Positions 62-25,049 of a DNA stretch of 25,897 bases are shown here, piece after piece. The position numbers and the translations under genes were made by a program. The notes under the pieces are model-generated. The model saw only the letters and a list, made by a program, of their open reading frames with translations, made no database searches and was not told the origin of the DNA. The stretch is from a virus, in the IMG/VR virus record IMGVR_UViG_3300008450_000392, positions 1 through 25,897 of that record. One strand, written 5' to 3'. Position 1 is the stretch's first letter. Every line of letters starts with the position of its first letter.

Positions 62-95
62 GGTGTTGCTCCTTTCGGTTCGGTTGGTTGCTTCC

Positions 96-124
96 TATAT
101 ATGCACAGCGAAGCTGTGCTATCT
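96..124. repeat. 29-nt hairpin repeat, copy 1
   Basis: This is an exact match to 1253-1281. The + strand begins TATATAT, then a perfect 7-bp stem GCACAGC, loop GAA, GCTGTGC, then TATCT. It overlaps the stop codon of the 123-479 gene and lies about 40 nt ahead of the leftward start at 61. Read on the minus strand the hairpin is followed by ATATATA rather than a U tract, so it is a poor intrinsic terminator. A promoter with an AT-rich -10, a processing site or a protein-binding site fits better. Confidence 0.75.
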
Positions 125-479
125 ATGACTTTGCGTATGTGGTGAAGTCATCGGGGATTTGTACTACTGCCCCGCGATTGTTTAGCGCAGAGTAGATACA
201 AGCCACTGCCAGATGGTCATTGCCACCGATGTGCCATCGATACGGAGTATCGAGGTCGATGTCTTCGTACTCTTTGTAATCGTAGATATCTGCCACGATG
301 TCGGGAATACCATTGCCCACTTCGAATAGAAGTGTCCAGTGATATTGCACCTTGTCACCCTCGTACCTGTCCACGTTTCCAAACGCTAGGTTCAAGCCAC
401 GTCGGGTTGTTGTGATGTATCCCTTTAGGGATGTGCCATTGATATCTATCTCTGGCGAATTGATTGCCTTAAGTTTCAC
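123..479 (-). CDS. hypothetical phage protein, 118 aa
   Basis: This is the last gene of the four-gene leftward operon. It starts with GTG at 479-477, directly next to the TAA stop of the upstream gene, and GGAGGA lies just before it, so translation is probably coupled. The product is acidic and soluble, with an aromatic-rich centre (YHWTLLFEVGNG) and an acidic stretch (DIYDYKEYEDIDLDTPYRWH). There is no signal peptide, membrane segment or recognisable catalytic motif. I do not recognise the family. Small leftward genes opposite the structural genes are commonly early or host-takeover genes, but nothing here shows that directly. Confidence 0.75.
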   Translation of the reverse strand: MKLKAINSPEIDINGTSLKGYITTTRRGLNLAFGNVDRYEGDKVQYHWTLLFEVGNGIPDIVADIYDYKEYEDIDLDTPYRWHIGGNDHLAVACIYSALNNRGAVVQIPDDFTTYAKS

Positions 480-752
480 TTAGTCCTCCTCGTTGTTGAG
501 CCATGGCTCAAGATGATGAGCCTCTACTATGGCGTAGGCTGGTGCTGTTGGATACCCTTTCCAAAAGATTCCTTTTGGAAGTTGGATACTCTTATGAGTA
601 TCGCCGTCATCGACTGCATAGATGGCTTCGATACATGGTTCCACCATGGTAAGTGGAACTGGCGGATAATGATTACCACGTAAGTGGTAACCGATTGATT
701 GGCGAATGTCAATGACATTCTCCACTAGGTCATGTGCTAGATTGCTACCCAT
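480..752 (-). CDS. hypothetical phage protein, 90 aa
   Basis: ATG at 752-750 with AAGGAGG about 8 nt upstream, placed inside the 3' end of the preceding leftward gene (8-nt overlap). The product contains HLRGNHYPPVP near residue 24 and WKGYPTAPAYAIVEAHHLE near the C-terminus. The His/Pro-rich central motif and the WxG..TAPA..IVE.HH pattern resemble a small conserved family that I recall from actinobacterial phages, without a known function. There is no membrane segment or signal peptide. It sits third in the four-gene operon. Confidence 0.77.
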   Translation of the reverse strand: MGSNLAHDLVENVIDIRQSIGYHLRGNHYPPVPLTMVEPCIEAIYAVDDGDTHKSIQLPKGIFWKGYPTAPAYAIVEAHHLEPWLNNEED

Positions 753-1044
753 TTAATGCCTCCTCCTTGTAGTAGTTCTTTGCGATAGCAAACCATTCAC
801 TATCGCCCCATCCACCCATGATTTGGCGGATGAGTAGTGTGGCTGGGGCATCATTGCCCCATTCACGTTCGGCTAGACCAGCCACTTGGTTGACGTAGTC
901 ATCCCATTCTTGGCGTAATACATTGACGAACTCATGAATATCTACCGACTGCTTAGCAGTCGACATGAGGTCACGCCATGCATCTTCATCGTTGTCCATT
1001 ACCAATAGGTAATCTTGTACGAATTGCTCACTTGCTGTATTCAT
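745..1044 (-). CDS. hypothetical small acidic phage protein, 99 aa
   Basis: ATG at 1044-1042 overlaps the stop of the upstream 55-aa gene in a TAATG junction. The protein is acidic and predicted largely helical, with many Asp/Glu and Trp residues. The ending (LLIRQIMGGWGDSEWFAIAKNY) recalls the 'LL..A...W.eIA..' C-terminus of small acidic proteins found in many phages, which have no assigned role. This is a resemblance from memory and not a domain call. The downstream gene's ribosome binding site lies inside this reading frame (AAGGAGGAGG encodes KEE). Confidence 0.77.
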   Translation of the reverse strand: MNTASEQFVQDYLLVMDNDEDAWRDLMSTAKQSVDIHEFVNVLRQEWDDYVNQVAGLAEREWGNDAPATLLIRQIMGGWGDSEWFAIAKNYYKEEALNG

Positions 1045-1211
1045 TATCGTTCCTCTCGGATTGTTGTTGCCCAGTGCTTCTCATCTATTGCAGACCTACG
1101 GTCTGCTATCTTGATTGCGAGTACATCCCATAGCAATGCGAGGGATAACGTGCCAGTGATTCCAATGAGGATTCCGACAGCGAGGTAATCGCCCCAATAA
1201 AGTGCATCCAT
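1044..1211 (-). CDS. small membrane protein, 55 aa, first gene of leftward operon
   Basis: This short gene has ATG at 1211-1209, GGAG 7-8 nt upstream, and a TAA stop that overlaps the next ATG (TAATG). The product begins MDALYWGDYLAVGILIGITG, followed by TLSLALLWDVLA, giving one hydrophobic helix at residues 10-33. A charged tail (KIADRRSAIDEKHW) follows. A single membrane span with a basic C-terminal tail is the only visible property. The start and stop tile exactly into the operon, which is the best evidence that it is real. A longer frame that overlaps it (1106-1369) starts within the promoter and is rejected. Confidence 0.8.
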   Translation of the reverse strand: MDALYWGDYLAVGILIGITGTLSLALLWDVLAIKIADRRSAIDEKHWATTIREER

Positions 1212-1252
1212 CTTGTTGCTCCAATCTGCCCCGATATTTTCGAGGCTCCCCT

Positions 1253-1281
1253 TATATATGCACAGCGAAGCTGTGCTATCT
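1253..1281. repeat. 29-nt hairpin repeat, copy 2
   Basis: Identical to 96-124 across all 29 bases. The stem is 1260-1266 with 1270-1276 and the loop is GAA. It lies about 42 nt ahead of the leftward start at 1211 and would fall in the 5' leader of a transcript from the promoter candidate at 1341-1369. It occupies the same relative position as copy 1 has to the gene starting at 61, which suggests a shared regulatory role for the two leftward units. Confidence 0.75.
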
Positions 1282-1340
1282 TGAGATGCGTAGCGCCCGC
1301 ATCATGGCGCTCCATCTGAGGGCTACCAATAGCCAACCCG

Positions 1341-1369
1341 CAGATACAATAGATATCATCGTTTGTCAA
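1341..1369 (-). promoter_or_regulatory. candidate leftward promoter
   Basis: The minus strand has a perfect TTGACA (1369-1364), a 17-nt spacer and TATCTG (1346-1341) as a weak -10. Transcription would start near 1334 and run into the leftward operon at 1211 with a leader of about 120 nt. The -35 is convincing and the -10 matches only at TAT, so activity may need an activator. Confidence 0.45.
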
Positions 1370-1386
1370 GTACCTTTAGGTACTTG
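1367..1386. promoter_or_regulatory. palindrome overlapping the leftward -35 (operator candidate)
   Basis: CAAGTACC, loop TTTA, GGTACTTG: a perfect 8-bp inverted repeat whose left arm shares three bases with the TTGACA box of the leftward promoter. A dimeric repressor bound here would block that promoter. It could also fold as a hairpin in RNA. There is no U tract, so it is not a terminator. Confidence 0.45.
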
Positions 1387-1425
1387 CTATTAATTGCCAA
1401 CACGTAAGTGCTATTTATTGCCAAC
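1385..1425. repeat. 17-nt direct repeat, two copies, 24-bp spacing
   Basis: TGCTATTAATTGCCAAC at 1385-1401 and TGCTATTTATTGCCAAC at 1409-1425 differ at one base and are 24 bp apart. A shorter relative (ATAGCCAAC) occurs near 1329-1337. They lie just upstream of the leftward -35 (minus-strand sense), where activator sites or iterons would be expected. Confidence 0.6.
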
Positions 1426-1435
1426 GCATATGCGT
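1424..1435. promoter_or_regulatory. 12-bp perfect palindrome
   Basis: ACGCATATGCGT is fully self-complementary without a spacer and begins at the end of the second 17-nt direct repeat. A compact perfect dyad inside an intergenic repeat cluster is a plausible protein-binding site. Function not shown. Confidence 0.35.
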
Positions 1436-1446
1436 GTATCGCGGGG

Positions 1447-1492
1447 GTGTCATGCCGTATGTGTCGCATCATGTGTCATGTCATGTGTCATG
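1447..1492. repeat. GTGTCATG iteron-like cluster
   Basis: TCATGTGTCATG occurs twice in perfect tandem (1469-1480, 1481-1492). The core GTGTCATG also occurs at 1447-1454, a GTGTCG variant lies at 1461-1466, and inverse-sense GACAC elements follow near 1504-1514. GTGTCATTCAATC just past the rightward -10 (1575-1587) is related to GTGTCATGATTCAATG at 1485-1500. This suggests one regulator binding both upstream of and at the rightward promoter, or an origin iteron array. Confidence 0.5.
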
Positions 1493-1526
1493 ATTCAATG
1501 AAAGACACGACACACCGCAATTACGC

Positions 1527-1542
1527 TCAGCCGTCGGGCTGA
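1527..1542. promoter_or_regulatory. stem-loop abutting the rightward -35
   Basis: TCAGCC, loop GTCG, GGCTGA forms a perfect 6-bp inverted repeat ending 2 nt before the TTGACA box at 1545. Without a following T tract it looks more like a regulator site than a terminator. Confidence 0.35.
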
Positions 1543-1544
1543 AT

Positions 1545-1573
1545 TTGACAATGGGGGGCTGGTCGTGTATTCT
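1545..1573 (+). promoter_or_regulatory. rightward sigma70-type promoter
   Basis: TTGACA (1545-1550), a spacer of exactly 17 nt, and TATTCT (1568-1573). The start site would be near 1580, about 45 nt ahead of the ATG at 1626. This is the clearest housekeeping-sigma promoter in the window and drives the single small gene that follows, which is closed by two terminator hairpins. Confidence 0.75.
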
Positions 1574-1625: not shown

Positions 1626-1895
1626 ATGAAGACAGCATGGACACACGATGATTTACTAGTAAATCTAGAGGCTGAAGTTGCTGAAGTTAAATGGGAATTG
1701 GGTATCGAATCTCTAAAAGAGATTCCAGATTTCATGGTGCTTCAGCCTCATGAAATTCATCATGCGAAGATTGGAGATATTCTCCAATTGGCAAACGGCA
1801 AGAATTGCATCATCTTCGACATAGTCGAAACACCAACGGCGTTGGAGATTTCAGCGGTAACCGAATCACTAAGAGTGATTGTGAAACGCTTCTAG
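1626..1895 (+). CDS. hypothetical small protein, 89 aa, own promoter and terminator
   Basis: ATG at 1626 is preceded by GAAAGG. A longer frame from the TTG at 1545 is excluded because that TTG lies within the -35 box. The product is an acidic N-terminal helix (residues about 6-30, rich in Glu and Leu) followed by a beta-rich part with HHAKIGDILQLANGK at about 44-58, ending in a basic VIVKRF. I do not recognise the family. Being monocistronic, strongly promoted, flanked by operator-like repeats and closed by two hairpins, it could encode an early regulator or host-interaction protein. That is an inference from context only. Confidence 0.75.
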   Translation: MKTAWTHDDLLVNLEAEVAEVKWELGIESLKEIPDFMVLQPHEIHHAKIGDILQLANGKNCIIFDIVETPTALEISAVTESLRVIVKRF

Positions 1896-1910
1896 GGATA
1901 GTCAGCCCAT

Positions 1911-1937
1911 CTCTCCACTTCTAAAGAAGTGGGGGGG
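1911..1937 (+). terminator. first hairpin after the 89-aa gene
   Basis: CCACTTC, loop TAAA, GAAGTGG gives a perfect 7-bp stem. The flanking CTCT and GGGG can extend it with G-U pairs. It starts 16 nt after the stop codon. The following tract (TGGGTTCTTCCCTTTTC) is only partly T-rich, so this may be a weak terminator helped by the next hairpin. Confidence 0.5.
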
Positions 1938-1969
1938 TGGGTTCTTCCCTTTTCAGCTGAAATTTTCGT

Positions 1970-2000
1970 GGGGCAGGGGGCAACCCTTGCCCCTTTTTTT
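1970..2000 (+). terminator. intrinsic terminator
   Basis: GGGGCAGGG pairs with CCC-T-TGCCCC (one bulged T) around a 5-nt loop, followed immediately by seven Ts (1994-2000). This is a classic rho-independent terminator. It isolates the 1626-1895 gene from the late genes. Confidence 0.85.
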
Positions 2001-2293
2001 GTGCTCACAGCCTATGCTACCCCAGGGGTTTTTAACCAGACCCCCCACCTACCCCCCACTATCATCAAAAATATTTTCACCAGAAAACCAGTGCTGACCA
2101 GGACTTTTACCAAGTTAATAAAAAAACTTTTAGAAAGCCCTTGAGAAACGCCCATGCTCTAGCCCCCTATATAAGTGTAACGGCGGAGTTCCACGAAGCC
2201 GTAAAACGCGGGCTGAACGCCCGCTTTAAGTTTGGTTATGCTTATGTGGGGATACCTCTGTCAACCCCCTTGTAGACCCCTACAACCTCTGGA
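2001..2293. other. gene-free stretch before the late genes
   Basis: No credible coding region. The first half is C-rich with runs of five or six C alternating with A/T-rich tracts. A TATATAAG box follows at 2168-2175, a candidate -10 with no good -35 at 16-18 nt. Then come two stem-loops (2180-2227). The leftover frame 1929-2144 has no ribosome binding site and low-complexity product, so it is not called. Confidence 0.6.
2180..2227 (+). promoter_or_regulatory. two consecutive stem-loops upstream of terminase
   Basis: ACGGC (2180-2184) pairs with GCCGT (2198-2202) around 13 nt. Directly after, GCGGGC (2208-2213) pairs with GCCCGC (2219-2224) around TGAAC, followed by TTTAAGTTT. The second could be a weak terminator or attenuator. 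Together they would form the 5' leader of a late transcript starting near TATATAAG at 2168. Function is inferred. Confidence 0.4.
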
Positions 2294-6156: not shown

Positions 6157-7758
6157 ATGGCAGCCAAAAAAGGCAAGACCAATCGAAAGTATCGGCAGGC
6201 AAAGCAGGCTGCCAAACCTGCTGCTAAGGCAGCATTCTCTGGCAAGAAGCAAGCTTCTCGTAAAGACCCAAAGATTAAAATCAGTGCTGAAGATAAGATG
6301 GCACTAAAGGATATGAAGGATACTGCTAAAGCAGACCTTGGCAAGAATGCTTACCTCAGCAGAGCTGAATATGAAGCAAATCAGGCTAAGGCACGTGAAG
6401 CATTCCGCGAACGTATGCGTACCGAATTCGGTGAGTACGGCGGAAAGAAAGCTTCAGCAGCCGAAGCAGCAATGAAGGACACTAAAGCAGGCGGTAAGAA
6501 AACAAAGCCAAAGGCGAAAGCACCTGCTGCTAAACCATCTACTATTTCCACTAAAGGTCCATCTCTTGTGGAAAACGGTAAGGTTGTTTCTGAGCTTCGT
6601 GCTAAAGAAATTATGTCAGGGTCAGGAGAAAAACCATCTGTAAAGAAGAAGGCAGTAACAAAGAAGAAGGCTGCTGTAAAGAAAGCAGCATCATCGAAGC
6701 CATCTGCTCCTGCGACTTCGAAGTCTGCCACTGTGGCAGAGCCAGCAACCAAGCCAGCTACTAAGAAACCATCAGTTAAGAAGAAGGCTGCAAGCAAGCC
6801 TTCAACCAAAAAAGCAGCTTCTGTTGCACGTCCAACTGATGCATCTCTTACCAAGATGGAAGATGATTATCTAAAGAAGACACAAGAAAAGCTAATCAAA
6901 GAAGGAAAGCTTTCTGGGTCTAAGGAATTAGTTCTTCGTCCAAAGGGTGAAGTTGTTAGCACACGTACAGGTACAGTTGCAACAACTACATCACCAGTAA
7001 GACCAATTCCTGGCAGCGATACCGTTGTCAAGAAGGGTGGCAAGCTTAAGAAGCTTGGAAAGTTTGGTTTATATTCTGGAATACTTGCTGCAGGTTTTGG
7101 CGCAAAGGACATGGTTGAAGGGTCTAAGCGTAAAGCTCAGGCTGAAGCAGATTTGTTCTACGCTCAAAAGGGACGTAACCGCAATGTTGGAGAGCGCGTA
7201 GCAGATGTAGCTACAAAGTCATTGCCAACTTCTGCAAAGCAACTTGCTAAGTATTTTTCAATGGGTCTTGTCGGCGAAGATGTTTCAACTGCTGCAACAA
7301 AAGCAGAAAAGAAACTTGCTCAATACAAGCAAAAGAAAACCGCTGCAGCCAATAAGGGATTACGTTATGGTCCTAATGGCGAAAGCCTTGTTCCAGGAAC
7401 AGATGCTTACAAGAAGGGTTCCAAGACTCGTCCAGTAATTAAAGACGGCAAAGTCGTGGGCGGAACTTCTGGTGCAAAAGGTGGAGCAACTGGCGGAACA
7501 TCTGGCGGAACATCTGGCGGTGCATCTGGCAGTAAGTCAGGTGGTGCAACTCCAGGTGCTGGTGGTTCAACAATCACAGCAAAACCAGGCAGCACATACA
7601 TAGTTAAATCAGGTGACACACTTAGCGCAATTGCTAAAGCATCTGGCGTATCTCTTTCAGAGATTCGTAAAGCAAATAAGAAGTTTGCGACCAATCCTAA
7701 GTACAAGCAAGGCAACATGATTTGGTCAGGAACTAAGGTAAACATTCCAAAGAAGTAG
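6157..7758 (+). CDS. histone-like Lys/Ala-rich protein with C-terminal LysM domain
   Basis: 533 aa, ATG at 6157 after AAAGGA. Residues 1-240 are Lys/Ala/Pro-rich with AKKP-type repeats resembling histone H1 tails (KPSVKKKA occurs twice), then a short hydrophobic segment around 305-320 (FGLYSGILAAGFGAKD), a helical middle, a Gly/Ser linker at about 440-475 (GGTSGGTSGGASG) and a LysM domain at 479-533 (YIVKSGDTLSAIAKASGVSL...VNIPKK). LysM binds N-acetylglucosamine in peptidoglycan. The basic half should bind DNA. No catalytic domain is present. The position next to the portal suggests a packaged protein that leaves with the DNA and contacts the wall. This role is inferred. Confidence 0.8.
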   Translation: MAAKKGKTNRKYRQAKQAAKPAAKAAFSGKKQASRKDPKIKISAEDKMALKDMKDTAKADLGKNAYLSRAEYEANQAKAREAFRERMRTEFGEYGGKKASAAEAAMKDTKAGGKKTKPKAKAPAAKPSTISTKGPSLVENGKVVSELRAKEIMSGSGEKPSVKKKAVTKKKAAVKKAASSKPSAPATSKSATVAEPATKPATKKPSVKKKAASKPSTKKAASVARPTDASLTKMEDDYLKKTQEKLIKEGKLSGSKELVLRPKGEVVSTRTGTVATTTSPVRPIPGSDTVVKKGGKLKKLGKFGLYSGILAAGFGAKDMVEGSKRKAQAEADLFYAQKGRNRNVGERVADVATKSLPTSAKQLAKYFSMGLVGEDVSTAATKAEKKLAQYKQKKTAAANKGLRYGPNGESLVPGTDAYKKGSKTRPVIKDGKVVGGTSGAKGGATGGTSGGTSGGASGSKSGGATPGAGGSTITAKPGSTYIVKSGDTLSAIAKASGVSLSEIRKANKKFATNPKYKQGNMIWSGTKVNIPKK

Positions 7759-21040: not shown

Positions 21041-22870
21041 ATGCCAACACCGTCACGTTATTACAGTTCTACAGCTGCTAAGACAACGCTTTCAAGTTCT
21101 GTAGATTCATCAAGCGCAAGCATCTTGCTTGCTGCTCCATCTGGTCTTCCATCCCAGTATCCGTTTACCCTAATTCTTGAAAAGGATTCAGCTAACGAAG
21201 AAATCGTAACGGTTACTGCTCTAGTTGGTTCTTCTTATAGTGTGACTCGCGGTGTTGACGGAAGCACAGCCAAGGCTCACTCAGTTGGAGCAACAGTAGA
21301 ACACGGCGTATCTGCTCGTGACTATGCCGAGTCTCGTACGCACGAAGTATCAACCAACGCTCACGGTGTAACTGGTGACATTGTCGGTACTGGTGGAACA
21401 CAAACTCTTACTGGCAAGACACTTACTACCGCAACACTTGGTTCAATCCTTGATGCTGGTGGATATAAGATTACAAACCTTGCTACACCAACATCATCTT
21501 CTGATGCAGTACGTAAAGATTTTGCTGATGCCCAGGTAGCAGCAGCTGCTACGTCTGCAACTTCTGCATCTAATTCAGCAACCGCATCATTAAACTCTGC
21601 AAATGCTGCAGCAACTAGTGCTTCTAGTGCATCAACTTCTGCAAGTTCTGCCTTAGCATCACAACAGGCTGCAGCTACTTCTGCAACCAATGCATCTAAT
21701 TCAGCACTTGCTGCAGCAACTTCAGCATCCAGCGCTTCGACATCAGCAAGCAGTGCATTAGCTAGCGCCAATGCTGCTTCAACAAGTGCAAGTAATGCAA
21801 CTGCTTCGGCTAGTGCTGCTGCAACTAGCGCAGGAGCAGCCTCTACTTCAGCATCTTCTGCATTAACAAATGCCAATAACTCTGCATCTTCTGCAGCTCT
21901 AGCAGTAACATCTGCTAACTCAGCAGCAACCAGCGCATCAAGTGCTTTAGCTTCAGCAAATAGTGCAGCAACAAGTGCATCATCTGCTAACTCATCTGCA
22001 ACTACCGTTGCTGGTCAAGTTGCTTCTGGTCTTGTTCGTGACATGGGTGACATTACATCTTCAGATACAAGCACTGGAACTTGGATATCCCTATCATCTC
22101 TTGAAACAAACACACAGGCTGCAGCGACAGCTGCTGCAACAAGTGCTACCAGTGCAGCAACCAGTGCCACAAGCGCAGGCAACTCTGCAACTGCAGCAGC
22201 AGCAAGTGCTGCAACTTCTGTAACAAGTGCAGGGCAGGCTGCTACATCAGCGACCAGCGCACTTGCTTCTCAAACCGCTGCTGCAACATCCGCTGCTAGT
22301 GCGTTAACATCACAGACTGCTGCTGCAACTTCGGCAACATCTGCTGCAGCAAGTGCAACTGCTGCTGCTACCAGCGCAACAAGCGCTGCAGCATCTGCAA
22401 CTACAGCATCTAACAGTGCAGCAACTGCAACCACATCTGCATCACAAGCAGCCACATCGGCAACTAGTGCAGCAACCTCAGCGACTTCGGCAGCAGCATC
22501 TGCTACGGCAGCAGCTGCAAGTTACGACAGTTTTGACGACCGTTATCTTGGAGCTAAGGGAACAGCACCTACATTAGATAACGATAGCAACGCACTTCTT
22601 GAAGGAGCGTTGTATTGGGATACAACAAATAAAAACATGAATGTTTACAACGGAACCGCATGGGAAGTTGTAACAACGTCTGGAGATATCACAGCGGTAA
22701 CCGCTGGTACTGGTCTTTCTGGAGGTGGAGGTTCTGGAGCAGTAACAGTATCGCTTAATACAACAAGCGTTTATGTACTACCAAGCCAAGCATCAAGTAA
22801 TGGATATTTTTTAACCACAAACGGAAGTACCGCTTCGTGGGCTAACCTCTCAGATTGGGGAACACTCTAA
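21041..22870 (+). CDS. tail fibre protein with Ala/Ser/Thr coiled-coil shaft
   Basis: 609 aa, ATG at 21041. The N-terminal part (15-100) has FTLILEKDSANEEIVTVTA and TRGVDGSTAKAHSVGATVEHG, then TQTLTGKTLTTATLG and YKITNLATPTSSSDAVRKDF, all typical of phage fibre attachment regions. Two long Ala/Ser/Thr blocks (about 165-325 and 355-495) would form a trimeric coiled-coil shaft interrupted by VASGLVRDMGDITSSD. The C-terminal 115 residues (FDDRYLGAKGTAP, GALYWDTTNKNMNVYNGTAW) are a fibre-tip-type beta region. It likely projects from the tail and touches the host. Low complexity makes domain assignment in the shaft impossible. Confidence 0.87.
   Translation: MPTPSRYYSSTAAKTTLSSSVDSSSASILLAAPSGLPSQYPFTLILEKDSANEEIVTVTALVGSSYSVTRGVDGSTAKAHSVGATVEHGVSARDYAESRTHEVSTNAHGVTGDIVGTGGTQTLTGKTLTTATLGSILDAGGYKITNLATPTSSSDAVRKDFADAQVAAAATSATSASNSATASLNSANAAATSASSASTSASSALASQQAAATSATNASNSALAAATSASSASTSASSALASANAASTSASNATASASAAATSAGAASTSASSALTNANNSASSAALAVTSANSAATSASSALASANSAATSASSANSSATTVAGQVASGLVRDMGDITSSDTSTGTWISLSSLETNTQAAATAAATSATSAATSATSAGNSATAAAASAATSVTSAGQAATSATSALASQTAAATSAASALTSQTAAATSATSAAASATAAATSATSAAASATTASNSAATATTSASQAATSATSAATSATSAAASATAAAASYDSFDDRYLGAKGTAPTLDNDSNALLEGALYWDTTNKNMNVYNGTAWEVVTTSGDITAVTAGTGLSGGGGSGAVTVSLNTTSVYVLPSQASSNGYFLTTNGSTASWANLSDWGTL
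21535..22520 (+). repeat. degenerate low-complexity repeat coding the fibre shaft
   Basis: Two tracts of GCA/GCT, AGT/TCA and ACA/ACT codons encode ATSASSAS-type units. One segment recurs almost identically in protein (TSASSASTSASSALAS near residues 192-207 and 227-242) but with altered codons. It is split by a non-repeat segment at about 22010-22110. Recombination within it could change fibre length. Confidence 0.75.
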
Positions 22871-23337
22871 TGCCATTCGCATTTCAGCGCCGTAGAGGAA
22901 CCACGGCACAACACGCTTCGTTTACTGGATTACTTGCGGAGCTAACAGTTGATACAGACAAGAAAACAGTGGTAGTCCATGACGGCTCAACAGCTGGCGG
23001 AGTACCACTATCAAAGCAGCGTTCAACAACGACATCAACATCTGGCACTACATACACCTTAGCGTTGGCAGATGCCAACAATGTGGTTGTCACAACAAGT
23101 GCATCTGCCACAACAGTAACAGTGCCAGCAAGCGTTTTTGGAGCAGGCGACCAGATTACAGTATTACAGGACGGCGCTGGACAAGTTACTTTTGCAGCAG
23201 GTTCTGGTGTAACAATAGTTTCAACTGGTGCATCAACAGCAGCACCGAAAATTCGAGCAACATATGCTGGAGCAACCGTTTACTACAAGACAGGCGGAGC
23301 TAACCCTACAGTTACAATTGTAGGAGATATTGCATAA
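22870..23337 (+). CDS. fibre-tip/tropism-determinant-like protein, 155 aa
   Basis: The ATG at 22870 overlaps the fibre gene's stop (TAATG). A longer frame from TTG 22855 is not favoured. The N-terminus RRRGTTAQHASFTGLLAELT followed by DTDKKTVVVHDGSTAGGVPL matches the N-terminal domain seen in major tropism determinant-like proteins and many tail fibres. The remainder is a beta-rich domain (VVTTSASATTVTVPASVFGA, ITVLQDGAGQVTF) like those found in tail appendages. Probable role: host-binding appendage together with the fibre. Confidence 0.78.
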   Translation: MPFAFQRRRGTTAQHASFTGLLAELTVDTDKKTVVVHDGSTAGGVPLSKQRSTTTSTSGTTYTLALADANNVVVTTSASATTVTVPASVFGAGDQITVLQDGAGQVTFAAGSGVTIVSTGASTAAPKIRATYAGATVYYKTGGANPTVTIVGDIA

Positions 23338-25049
23338 TGCCAATTATTAAAGGAGTTATTGCATCTAGTAAGTACATCCCACAAAATTTAGTTGTTGATG
23401 TACTTTTAGTTGCTGGCGGTGGTGGAGGCGGTGGTCGCGGAAACCGTGGAGCTGGCGGTGGTGGTGCTGGTGGTGTTCTTTACTACTCATCACAAACATT
23501 AAGCAACCAAACATCTACAACTATTGTTGTCGGTGCTGGTGGTGCTGCTAACGGAGATGCCGCAGCAGGAAATGGCAAGGGTACAAATTCATCTTTTGCT
23601 GCACTTACTGCAGCAGTTGGTGGTGGATTTGGACGGTCAGATAATGGTGGTCCAGGTGGTTCTGGTGGCTCTGGTGGTGGAGGTTACTCTGGAGGACCAG
23701 GTGAAGACGGTACTGCAGGCGGGTCACCAACTTCTGGTCAAGGCTATGCTGGTGGTGCTGGAACATCGAGCCAGACATTTAATTCTCCATTCGGCGGTGG
23801 CGGTGGTGGCGGTGCAGCGCAAGCTGGCTCAAACGGCGGTCAAGGTCAAGGAGGTAACGGTGGTAATGGAACCTCTACTTATTCATCATGGGGCGCTGCA
23901 ACATCAACTGGTCAGAACTCAGGTGGAACTTATTATTATGCTGGCGGTGGTGGCGGTGGTGTTGGAAGCTACAGTGGTGGCGATGCAACAACTGCTGGCA
24001 CTGGCGGTTTAGGTGGCGGAGCAAATGGAAACGGTTCAGCTTCCTCACCCGCTACAAACGGTACAGCAAACACTGGCGGTGGAGGTGGAGGCGGAAACGC
24101 TGGTGGTGGCAATGGTGGCTCTGGCATAGTTATCGCCAGATACTCTGGCGTTCAAAAAGCTACAGGAGGTTCTGTAGTAACTACTGGTGGATACACATAT
24201 CATACATTTAATGCATCTGGAAGTTTATATACTGGTCTAGCTAAAGCTAATGGCGGTGGAGTATATAAGGATGCTAACTACTGGTATCACGCATTTCGCG
24301 GTTCTGGAAGTTTCATTACAACAACTCCTGTTACAGCAGATATCTTTGTTCTTGCAGGTGGAGGTGGTTCTACATCAGATAACTCTGGTGGTGGTGGAGC
24401 AGGTGGTGCAGTTGCGTTTGCATCTCAATCACTTTCTGGAACATACGCAATCACCGTTGGCGCTGGTGGAACCAATAACAGCGGTGGCAATAACTCAACA
24501 TTTCAAGGACTAACATCTGCCATAGGCGGAGGTCGTGGTGGCGGATACTTCTATACCGCAGGCAGTGGCGGTTGTGGTGGTGGTGCTGGCTCACAAGGCG
24601 GTACAGGTCAAAACGCTGGAAGCGGAAGCCAAGGCGGTAACGGTGGCAGCAACGGTGGTTCTCCTTCATCTGCTGGTGGTGGCGGTGGTATGGGTGGAGT
24701 TGGTGGCACTGCTACTGGTTCACCTAGAGGTGGTAACGGCGGTGCAGGTATCAGCTCAATTACCAACTTCTCGAATCTCTCAACAGCTCTTTCCGTAATT
24801 GGAGTTGGGCAAAATAGCTCAGGCACTTGGTATGTTGCAGGTGGAGGCGGAGGCGCAGGTCGTACCAACCCAGGAACTACAGGAGCTGTAGGTACTGGTG
24901 GAATTGGTGGCGGTGGTAACGGCGGTTCCTATACTCAAATTGCTTCTACAGATGGTTTAATTTCTTCTGGCTCTGGCGGAGGCGGTTCAGACTTTACTAT
25001 TCCAGGTAGTGGCGGTTCTGGACTTGTTATTATCAGATACCCTATTTAA
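23337..25049 (+). CDS. glycine-rich tail adhesin-like protein, two tandem domains
   Basis: 570 aa, TAATG-coupled to the previous gene. About 40% Gly. Two repeats each start with a hydrophobic strand then a Gly run (VLLVAGGGGGGG near 22; IFVLAGGGGS near 340) and end GGSG(I/L)VI(A/I)RY (near 255-265 and at the C-terminus). Between them are two copies of an aromatic motif (YTYHTFNASGSL; YWYHAFRGSGSF). Glycine-rich domains of this kind are known from tail fibres and can form polyglycine II helix bundles as in S16 gp38 adhesin. Likely receptor-binding. There is no signal peptide. Confidence 0.82.
   Translation: MPIIKGVIASSKYIPQNLVVDVLLVAGGGGGGGRGNRGAGGGGAGGVLYYSSQTLSNQTSTTIVVGAGGAANGDAAAGNGKGTNSSFAALTAAVGGGFGRSDNGGPGGSGGSGGGGYSGGPGEDGTAGGSPTSGQGYAGGAGTSSQTFNSPFGGGGGGGAAQAGSNGGQGQGGNGGNGTSTYSSWGAATSTGQNSGGTYYYAGGGGGGVGSYSGGDATTAGTGGLGGGANGNGSASSPATNGTANTGGGGGGGNAGGGNGGSGIVIARYSGVQKATGGSVVTTGGYTYHTFNASGSLYTGLAKANGGGVYKDANYWYHAFRGSGSFITTTPVTADIFVLAGGGGSTSDNSGGGGAGGAVAFASQSLSGTYAITVGAGGTNNSGGNNSTFQGLTSAIGGGRGGGYFYTAGSGGCGGGAGSQGGTGQNAGSGSQGGNGGSNGGSPSSAGGGGGMGGVGGTATGSPRGGNGGAGISSITNFSNLSTALSVIGVGQNSSGTWYVAGGGGGAGRTNPGTTGAVGTGGIGGGGNGGSYTQIASTDGLISSGSGGGGSDFTIPGSGGSGLVIIRYPI

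Follow-up and report, generated by a model that had tools for sequence, protein, structure and literature searches.

What does the short region from which the genes of this virus diverge control, and through which elements? The window, a stretch of 25,897 bp that constitutes the whole virus record, carries terminase, portal and major capsid genes on the plus strand. Near its left end a preliminary description had placed two promoters facing away from each other across an array of palindromes and direct repeats, and had read the array as an early control switch or an origin. Conservation supports a control region between divergent transcription units, and conservation among relatives likewise supports the claim of more than one repeat family. 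Taken as a whole, the locus probably combines the divergent early control region of a lytic phage, one of the actinophages that infect freshwater Ca. Nanopelagicales, with a leftward operon tagged by hairpins. This reading is built on what is observed directly, namely sequence, conservation, base-pair covariation, strand and position.

IMG/VR contains many close relatives of the source phage, several of them genome-length at ~41–42 kb. Genes diverge from the control region and every ORF is conserved among relatives. In a 41,866-bp relative a rightward replication arm (exonuclease, DnaB-like helicase, primase, HslV-family peptidase and sigma factor) is followed in order by a leftward small-gene block (GP88, DUF932 and unknowns), the control region, the 89-aa gene and terminase. 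The HslV-family peptidase or proteasome-like gene lies at 7012–7572 of L091, in the replication arm of a relative. WhiB and sigma region 4 were found in 6 of 6 relatives, and integrase PF00589 in none of the six, with a control search positive in 14 of 14 genomes. TerL is ~43% identical to that of Streptomyces phages and ~46% identical to that of the isolated Ca. Planktophila phages LanE43AprE7 and F5, which carry reported WhiB and sigma genes (PMC10202952). These two isolates are alike in TerL, in similar GC and in WhiB and sigma genes, and unlike in that the hairpin tags and hairpin-dense operon described below were not detected there. The relatives' lack of integrase, their WhiB and sigma genes and the TerL kinship suggest a lytic lifestyle, and TerL kinship together with the gene content of relatives points to a Ca. 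Nanopelagicales host. Fourteen related contigs, including the genome-length L003, L013, L019 and L070, terminate 133–298 bp upstream of the terminase start (window 1996–2161), which suggests a physical genome end or packaging site at this position. Tail-fibre-like genes with long Ala/Ser/Thr-rich and Gly-rich repeats occupy window positions 21041–25049.

The features of the control region and of its rightward unit are as follows.
1323–1339, plus strand: degenerate third copy of the direct repeat
1341–1346, minus strand: candidate leftward -10, TATCTG, with a 17-bp spacer; weak match to TATAAT
1364–1369, minus strand: leftward -35, TTGACA; invariant in the window and 7 close relatives
1367–1386: conserved palindrome CAAGTACC-TTTA-GGTACTTG overlapping the leftward -35
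1380–1427, plus strand: two 24-nt direct repeats with core CTATTWATTGCCAA, putative leftward-side operators; core kept in the close clade
1424–1435: 12-bp palindrome ACGCATATGCGT; not conserved
1469–1492, plus strand: tandem TCATGTGTCATG at the core of a cluster of GTGTC/GACAC sites, a putative operator array that does not vary in the close clade
1509–1530, plus strand: GACACACCGCAATTACGCTCAG element, the most widely conserved upstream element
1527–1542: stem-loop TCAGCC-GTCG-GGCTGA; conserved in the close clade, degraded in diverged relatives
1545–1573, plus strand: rightward promoter TTGACA-17-TATTCT; conserved
1626–1895, plus strand: conserved 89-aa gene, from sequence conservation and a structure model
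1904–1995, plus strand: two terminator-like hairpins closing the unit of the 89-aa gene before terminase

The rightward promoter is present as it had been described. All 33 of 33 relatives keep its TTGACA, which lies at -74 to -91 relative to the 89-aa gene, even where identity in the downstream protein falls to 29%. The -10-like hexamers are mostly TATTCT, TAAGAT and GATAAT at a spacing of 16–18 bp. Most widely kept beside this promoter is the element at 1509–1530, absent from the preliminary description, with the pattern GACAC-CCG---TTACGCTCAG; of the 33 relatives, 24 carry its TTACGCT, placed at -87 to -108 relative to the 89-aa gene. The stem-loop just before the rightward -35 had been said to touch it; the stem-loop exists and ends two bases short of this hexamer. 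The 89-aa protein is modelled mainly as a small beta-barrel with two helices (pLDDT 93.7), for which a fold search of solved structures gave no significant match, SH3/Tudor-like matches being sub-significant. It has one unnamed viral homologue, and neither its gene nor the small leftward ORFs match a Pfam or PHROG family. That the protein may bind polymerase or nucleic acid is only a guess.

On the leftward side the reported TTGACA at 1369–1364 is also present, and is invariant in the close clade only; in diverged relatives the segment is absent. CAGATACA at the leftward -10 is invariant in 8 close sequences and the spacer bases vary. Both the poor match of TATCTG and the absence of this promoter from diverged relatives speak against our reading of the locus. 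The palindrome at the leftward -35, described as 8 bp, has 9-bp arms and a 2-bp gap, and relative L085 carries a compensating two-sided change within it. The direct repeats, likewise present, are 24 nt each rather than 17 (1380–1403 and 1404–1427, 20 of 24 positions identical), with the additional copy near 1323–1339; the CTATTWATTGCCAA repeats are largely kept in the close clade, and related TGAATAGCCCATGCG-type copies occur in some diverged relatives. Between the two sides, the tandem repeat that had been claimed was found as TCATGTGTCATG at 1469–1492. The 8 closest sequences all carry the TCATGTGTCATG block unchanged; across the close clade the TCATGTGTCATGTCATGTGTCATGATTCAAT block likewise shows no change, whereas its flanks vary. 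The 12-bp perfect palindrome exists and is broken in 5 of the 6 relatives compared, so that the proposed comparison with close relatives bears out the leftward direct repeats as well as the TCATGTGTCATG block, but not this palindrome.

Dinucleotide shuffles of the 233 bp at 1341–1573 provided the chance baseline. Three hairpins are found here against 0.27 expected (0 of 300 shuffles reach 3), the best 24-mer repeat has 20 matches against at most 17 in shuffles (0 of 100), and the longest exact repeat is 12 against at most 11 (0 of 300). GTGTC/GACAC occurs 7 times in 1441–1600 against 1.1 expected (0 of 300 shuffles). TTGACA occurs 18 times on both strands of the whole window, and positions 1–2600 contain 2 promoter-like sites where shuffles predict 3.8. 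Since consensus matching by itself does not rise above chance, the promoter calls are based on conservation. Palindrome density in 1341–1573 (12.9/kb) is no higher than in neighbouring coding sequence (11–22/kb), so the palindromes do not single out this region; hairpin density is 11.0/kb in leftward coding sequence, 22.2/kb in the 89-aa gene and 3.2/kb in structural genes.

From these elements we infer transcription starts, binding proteins and early timing. A host-sigma-type promoter would read rightward into the 89-aa gene, with the terminators ending this unit before the packaging genes, and a second, leftward promoter would drive the small-gene operon. Putative sites on the rightward side comprise the GTGTC/TCATG array and the TTACGCTCAG element, and those on the leftward side the ATTGCCAA repeats. 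The two site arrays would most likely be bound by two different regulators, the candidates being WhiB and sigma proteins encoded by the phage itself, or else factors of the host. The palindromes of the control region would mostly belong to the wider hairpin richness of the leftward transcription unit.

Because the relatives have no integrase, and do have genes for WhiB and sigma factors, the region is better read as a lytic early control region than as a lysogeny switch. A lysogeny switch or immunity region would also present divergent promoters and repeats of operator type, but integrase is missing from all six relatives under a working control search, no recognisable repressor adjoins the region and the adjoining 89-aa protein is modelled mainly as a small beta-barrel rather than as a typical repressor fold. 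The switch of the preliminary description, in its lysogeny sense, was consequently rejected and is in our view barely tenable. The same description's other suggestion, a replication origin with the TGTGTC/TCATG and ATTGCCAA repeats as iterons, is very unlikely. Such an origin would account for two direct-orientation repeat families that are local and not enriched elsewhere in the window; however, cumulative GC skew over a full-length relative, the check that had been proposed, simply tracks gene direction, and an origin called from skew was rejected for this reason. Helicase and primase moreover sit kilobases away in another arm, and no initiator gene was identified among the neighbours, which match no family.

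Leftward of the divergent early control region lies a set of genes with the following features.
123–1211, minus strand: hairpin-dense leftward genes, 4 ORFs in the window, with hairpins in excess over synonymous-codon shuffles
1249–1281, minus strand: tag 1, TCAAGATA-GCACAGC TTC GCTGTGC-ATATATAAGG, 48 nt upstream of the leftward start at 1211
1079–1114, minus strand: tag 2, GATA-GCAGACC GTA GGTCTGC, within ORF 1044–1211 and 45 nt upstream of the start at 1044
92–124, minus strand: tag 3, TAGATA-GCACAGC TTC GCTGTGC-ATATATAGG, 40 nt upstream of the leftward start at 62

Counting as perfect any hairpin with a stem of at least 7 bp, and shuffling synonymous codons within each gene as the null, the leftward genes in the window contain 10 perfect hairpins against 1.4 expected and the whole leftward operon of a relative contains 41 against 3.9 (sd 1.9), with loops of 3–4 nt most enriched. 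Among close relatives the substitution rate per site is 3.5% for arms, 6.0% for loops and 6.5% outside the hairpins, and pairing survives in 123 of 182 double changes, these counts being taken over pairs of related sequences and thus non-independent. In an incomplete run, folding of the leftward operon was stronger on the sense than on the antisense strand (-1.95 vs -1.63, -2.28 vs -1.77 and -1.66 vs -0.99); this advantage was absent from structural genes in the same incomplete run. Near-perfect hairpins prefer G:T over A:C on the sense strand in several of the genomes (11:1 and 9:3 in two related ones) and show no preference in L042 (4:4). One-sided changes in conserved hairpins give 76 G:T vs 69 A:C on the sense strand, a lack of difference that does not favour RNA. 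RNA-level selection on the hairpins of the leftward operon is likely but not proven.

Elsewhere, phages E7/F5 show a slight hairpin excess (29 against 21, and 38 against 21 with AT repeats making up part of the second count), and a long (AT)n palindrome cluster at 31547–31640 of E7 (L100) makes up much of its count. Streptomyces phage WRightOn (L101) has 150 hairpins vs 29 in shuffles, distributed evenly genome-wide; this is about five times the shuffle expectation, mostly with loops of 3–6.

The tags have a common architecture in which GATA is followed by a 17-nt hairpin, RCANANC-nnn-GNTNTGY (7-bp stem, 3-nt loop), and then by an AT-rich box such as ATATATAAGG. In the window this appears as an exact 29-nt repeat at 96–124 and 1253–1281 and a related copy at 1079–1114, the hairpin of which (1090–1106) falls within the last part of the preceding gene. 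Genomes carry up to 5 tags, and most tags end 32–60 nt upstream of a leftward start codon. The search used flanks and outer stem bases only, in homology-selected loci, where all 57 of 57 distinct tags form seven Watson-Crick pairs. When pattern-found loci are added 112 of 123 tags are fully paired; the 11 unpaired exceptions all come from pattern-scan contigs and are without the usual flanking context of the tag family. Control tetramers replacing GATA returned 0–7 distinct hairpins vs 61. All 116 of 116 occurrences lie on the leftward coding strand, including three in L096, the record of which is oriented oppositely.

All four Watson-Crick pairs are found at stem positions 4 and 6, and G:U pairs are absent from the 112 tags. 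Across 23 distinct tags four of the seven pairs change on both sides, with 37 two-sided vs 0 one-sided changed cells, and the covariation score is 0.567 vs 0.139 when shuffled and no more than 0.086 when slid. Less common variants carry a TTTA tetraloop or a stem of 6 bp, and the AT boxes flanking the hairpin are mostly 17 apart, mainly 15–19. Tags were not found in the distant relatives L055 and L079 (TerL 73% and 48%) nor in E7/F5. The close relative L084 (~1134–1140) is without window positions 1135–1294, and both the start of a 55-aa ORF and tag 1 are gone; this gap is either a deletion or an assembly chimera. A known RNA family was rejected, as Rfam gave one sub-threshold match only (E 0.86, far below gathering score), and in bacterial genomes one isolated Treponema match was found, close to the estimated chance number.

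Lying 32–60 nt upstream of leftward starts, the tag would most likely act as an element by which those genes are recognised or processed. Its position and strand fit either a transcribed 5' element, acting in stability, processing or translation, or a promoter, and we lean towards action as RNA. The first tag lies downstream of a TTGACA footprint, folding in the leftward operon favours the sense strand, and a nuclease could plausibly cut in AT-rich single-stranded sequence that follows a hairpin.

It is possible, though unlikely, that the tags are instead DNA-hairpin (cruciform) promoters or promoter spacers in the manner of phage N4, where either an RNA polymerase or sigma factor reads the extruded 7-bp/3-nt hairpin, or supercoiling-driven extrusion silences a promoter whose spacer is the hairpin. 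This proposal bears on the tags alone and can stand beside the control-region reading of 1341–1573. The tag loops are of DNA mini-hairpin type (GAA/TTC, GTA, AAA, TTTA), and loops of these types are known to be stable in DNA. The lack of G:U among 112 tags and the centring of the AT-box spacing on 17 point the same way, as does a GAA-to-TTC loop inversion at two tag loci, for which recombination between copies is an alternative cause. The dimensions and the logic of fixed plus free-but-paired stem positions are also as in N4 (PMC4496689). Against a DNA hairpin, the AT box (TATATA, TTGATAA) is without the final T of a canonical -10, the window's first tag sits downstream of a conventional TTGACA footprint, and the largest virion protein (1657 aa) yielded neither an RNA-polymerase motif nor a PDB structural match, so that it was not recognised as an N4-like virion RNA polymerase; PF00940 was also unmatched, but its control matched nowhere either. 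A start signal of non-N4 type, in which an extruded, sequence-constrained 7-bp/3-nt DNA hairpin between two AT-rich boxes, upstream of several leftward genes, would recruit or gate a multi-subunit RNA polymerase composed of host core and a phage factor, with no virion RNA polymerase involved, is rather doubtful. The wider hairpin excess might, for its part, be a functionless product of template switching during replication, at quasi-palindromes within genes under weak constraint, an explanation to which we give a minor chance. Some hairpins were indeed gained in one lineage via several clustered changes (946–962, 1707–1725), and hairpin density is lowest in structural genes. Yet arms evolve slower than loops and surroundings, both-side changes restore pairing more often than chance, the Ca. 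Planktophila phages E7/F5 show little excess, and the tags are fixed in position, strand and partial sequence.

The control region is comparable to divergent early regions of tailed phages in its back-to-back sigma70-type promoters, the several operator-like repeats between them and small early-type genes on one side. It differs in having no integrase or recognisable repressor, and in a rightward unit that consists of a single 89-aa gene and terminators before terminase. For the tag, the closest parallels are of two kinds. In actinophages a repeated inverted-repeat element, the ESAS, lies upstream of many small-gene starts, as the tags do; the SAS that accompanies it is 13 bp long and lies at the start codon, and no repeat of that kind was noticed here. 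The ESAS of Cluster K mycobacteriophages is an imperfect 17-bp inverted repeat with a spacer of mostly 4–13 bp, beside a SAS near the start codon (PMC3203893), whereas the tag has perfect 7-bp arms and a 3-nt loop and lies 32–60 nt from the start. N4 virion RNA polymerase promoters have a stem of up to 7 bp and a 3-nt loop, and in their stems some bases are fixed and others matter only for pairing (PMC4496689). The tags share the short stem, the 3-nt loop and the free-but-paired stem positions; unlike in N4, no N4-type virion RNA polymerase was recognised here and the tags are flanked by GATA and an AT box. The tag thus resembles both N4 hairpin promoters and mycobacteriophage ESAS, membership in neither being established. 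A tetranucleotide followed by a hairpin is also the arrangement of REP/REPIN elements, from which the tags differ in being strictly coding-strand and start-associated. A REP-like mobile hairpin was rejected, as the Y1 transposase PF01797 was found in 0 of 6 relatives and its control matched in 5 genomes.

Taken by itself, the divergent promoter region is a new but ordinary instance of a familiar kind. Of greater interest are the hairpin tag and the hairpin-dense operon, which appear not to have been described in the literature searched, where no account of the tag was found under incomplete coverage. Together the tag and the operon represent a signal conserved among phages whose hosts probably belong to one of the most abundant groups of freshwater bacteria; the leftward genes of these phages encode structure through synonymous codon choice, and a covarying hairpin stands at a set distance from genes. 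As distantly related phages have already been isolated (PMC10202952), isolating and testing a member of this clade is realistic. If the tags act as DNA, hairpin-promoter biology would extend beyond N4; if they act as RNA, they would represent a new phage signal for mRNA processing or stability.
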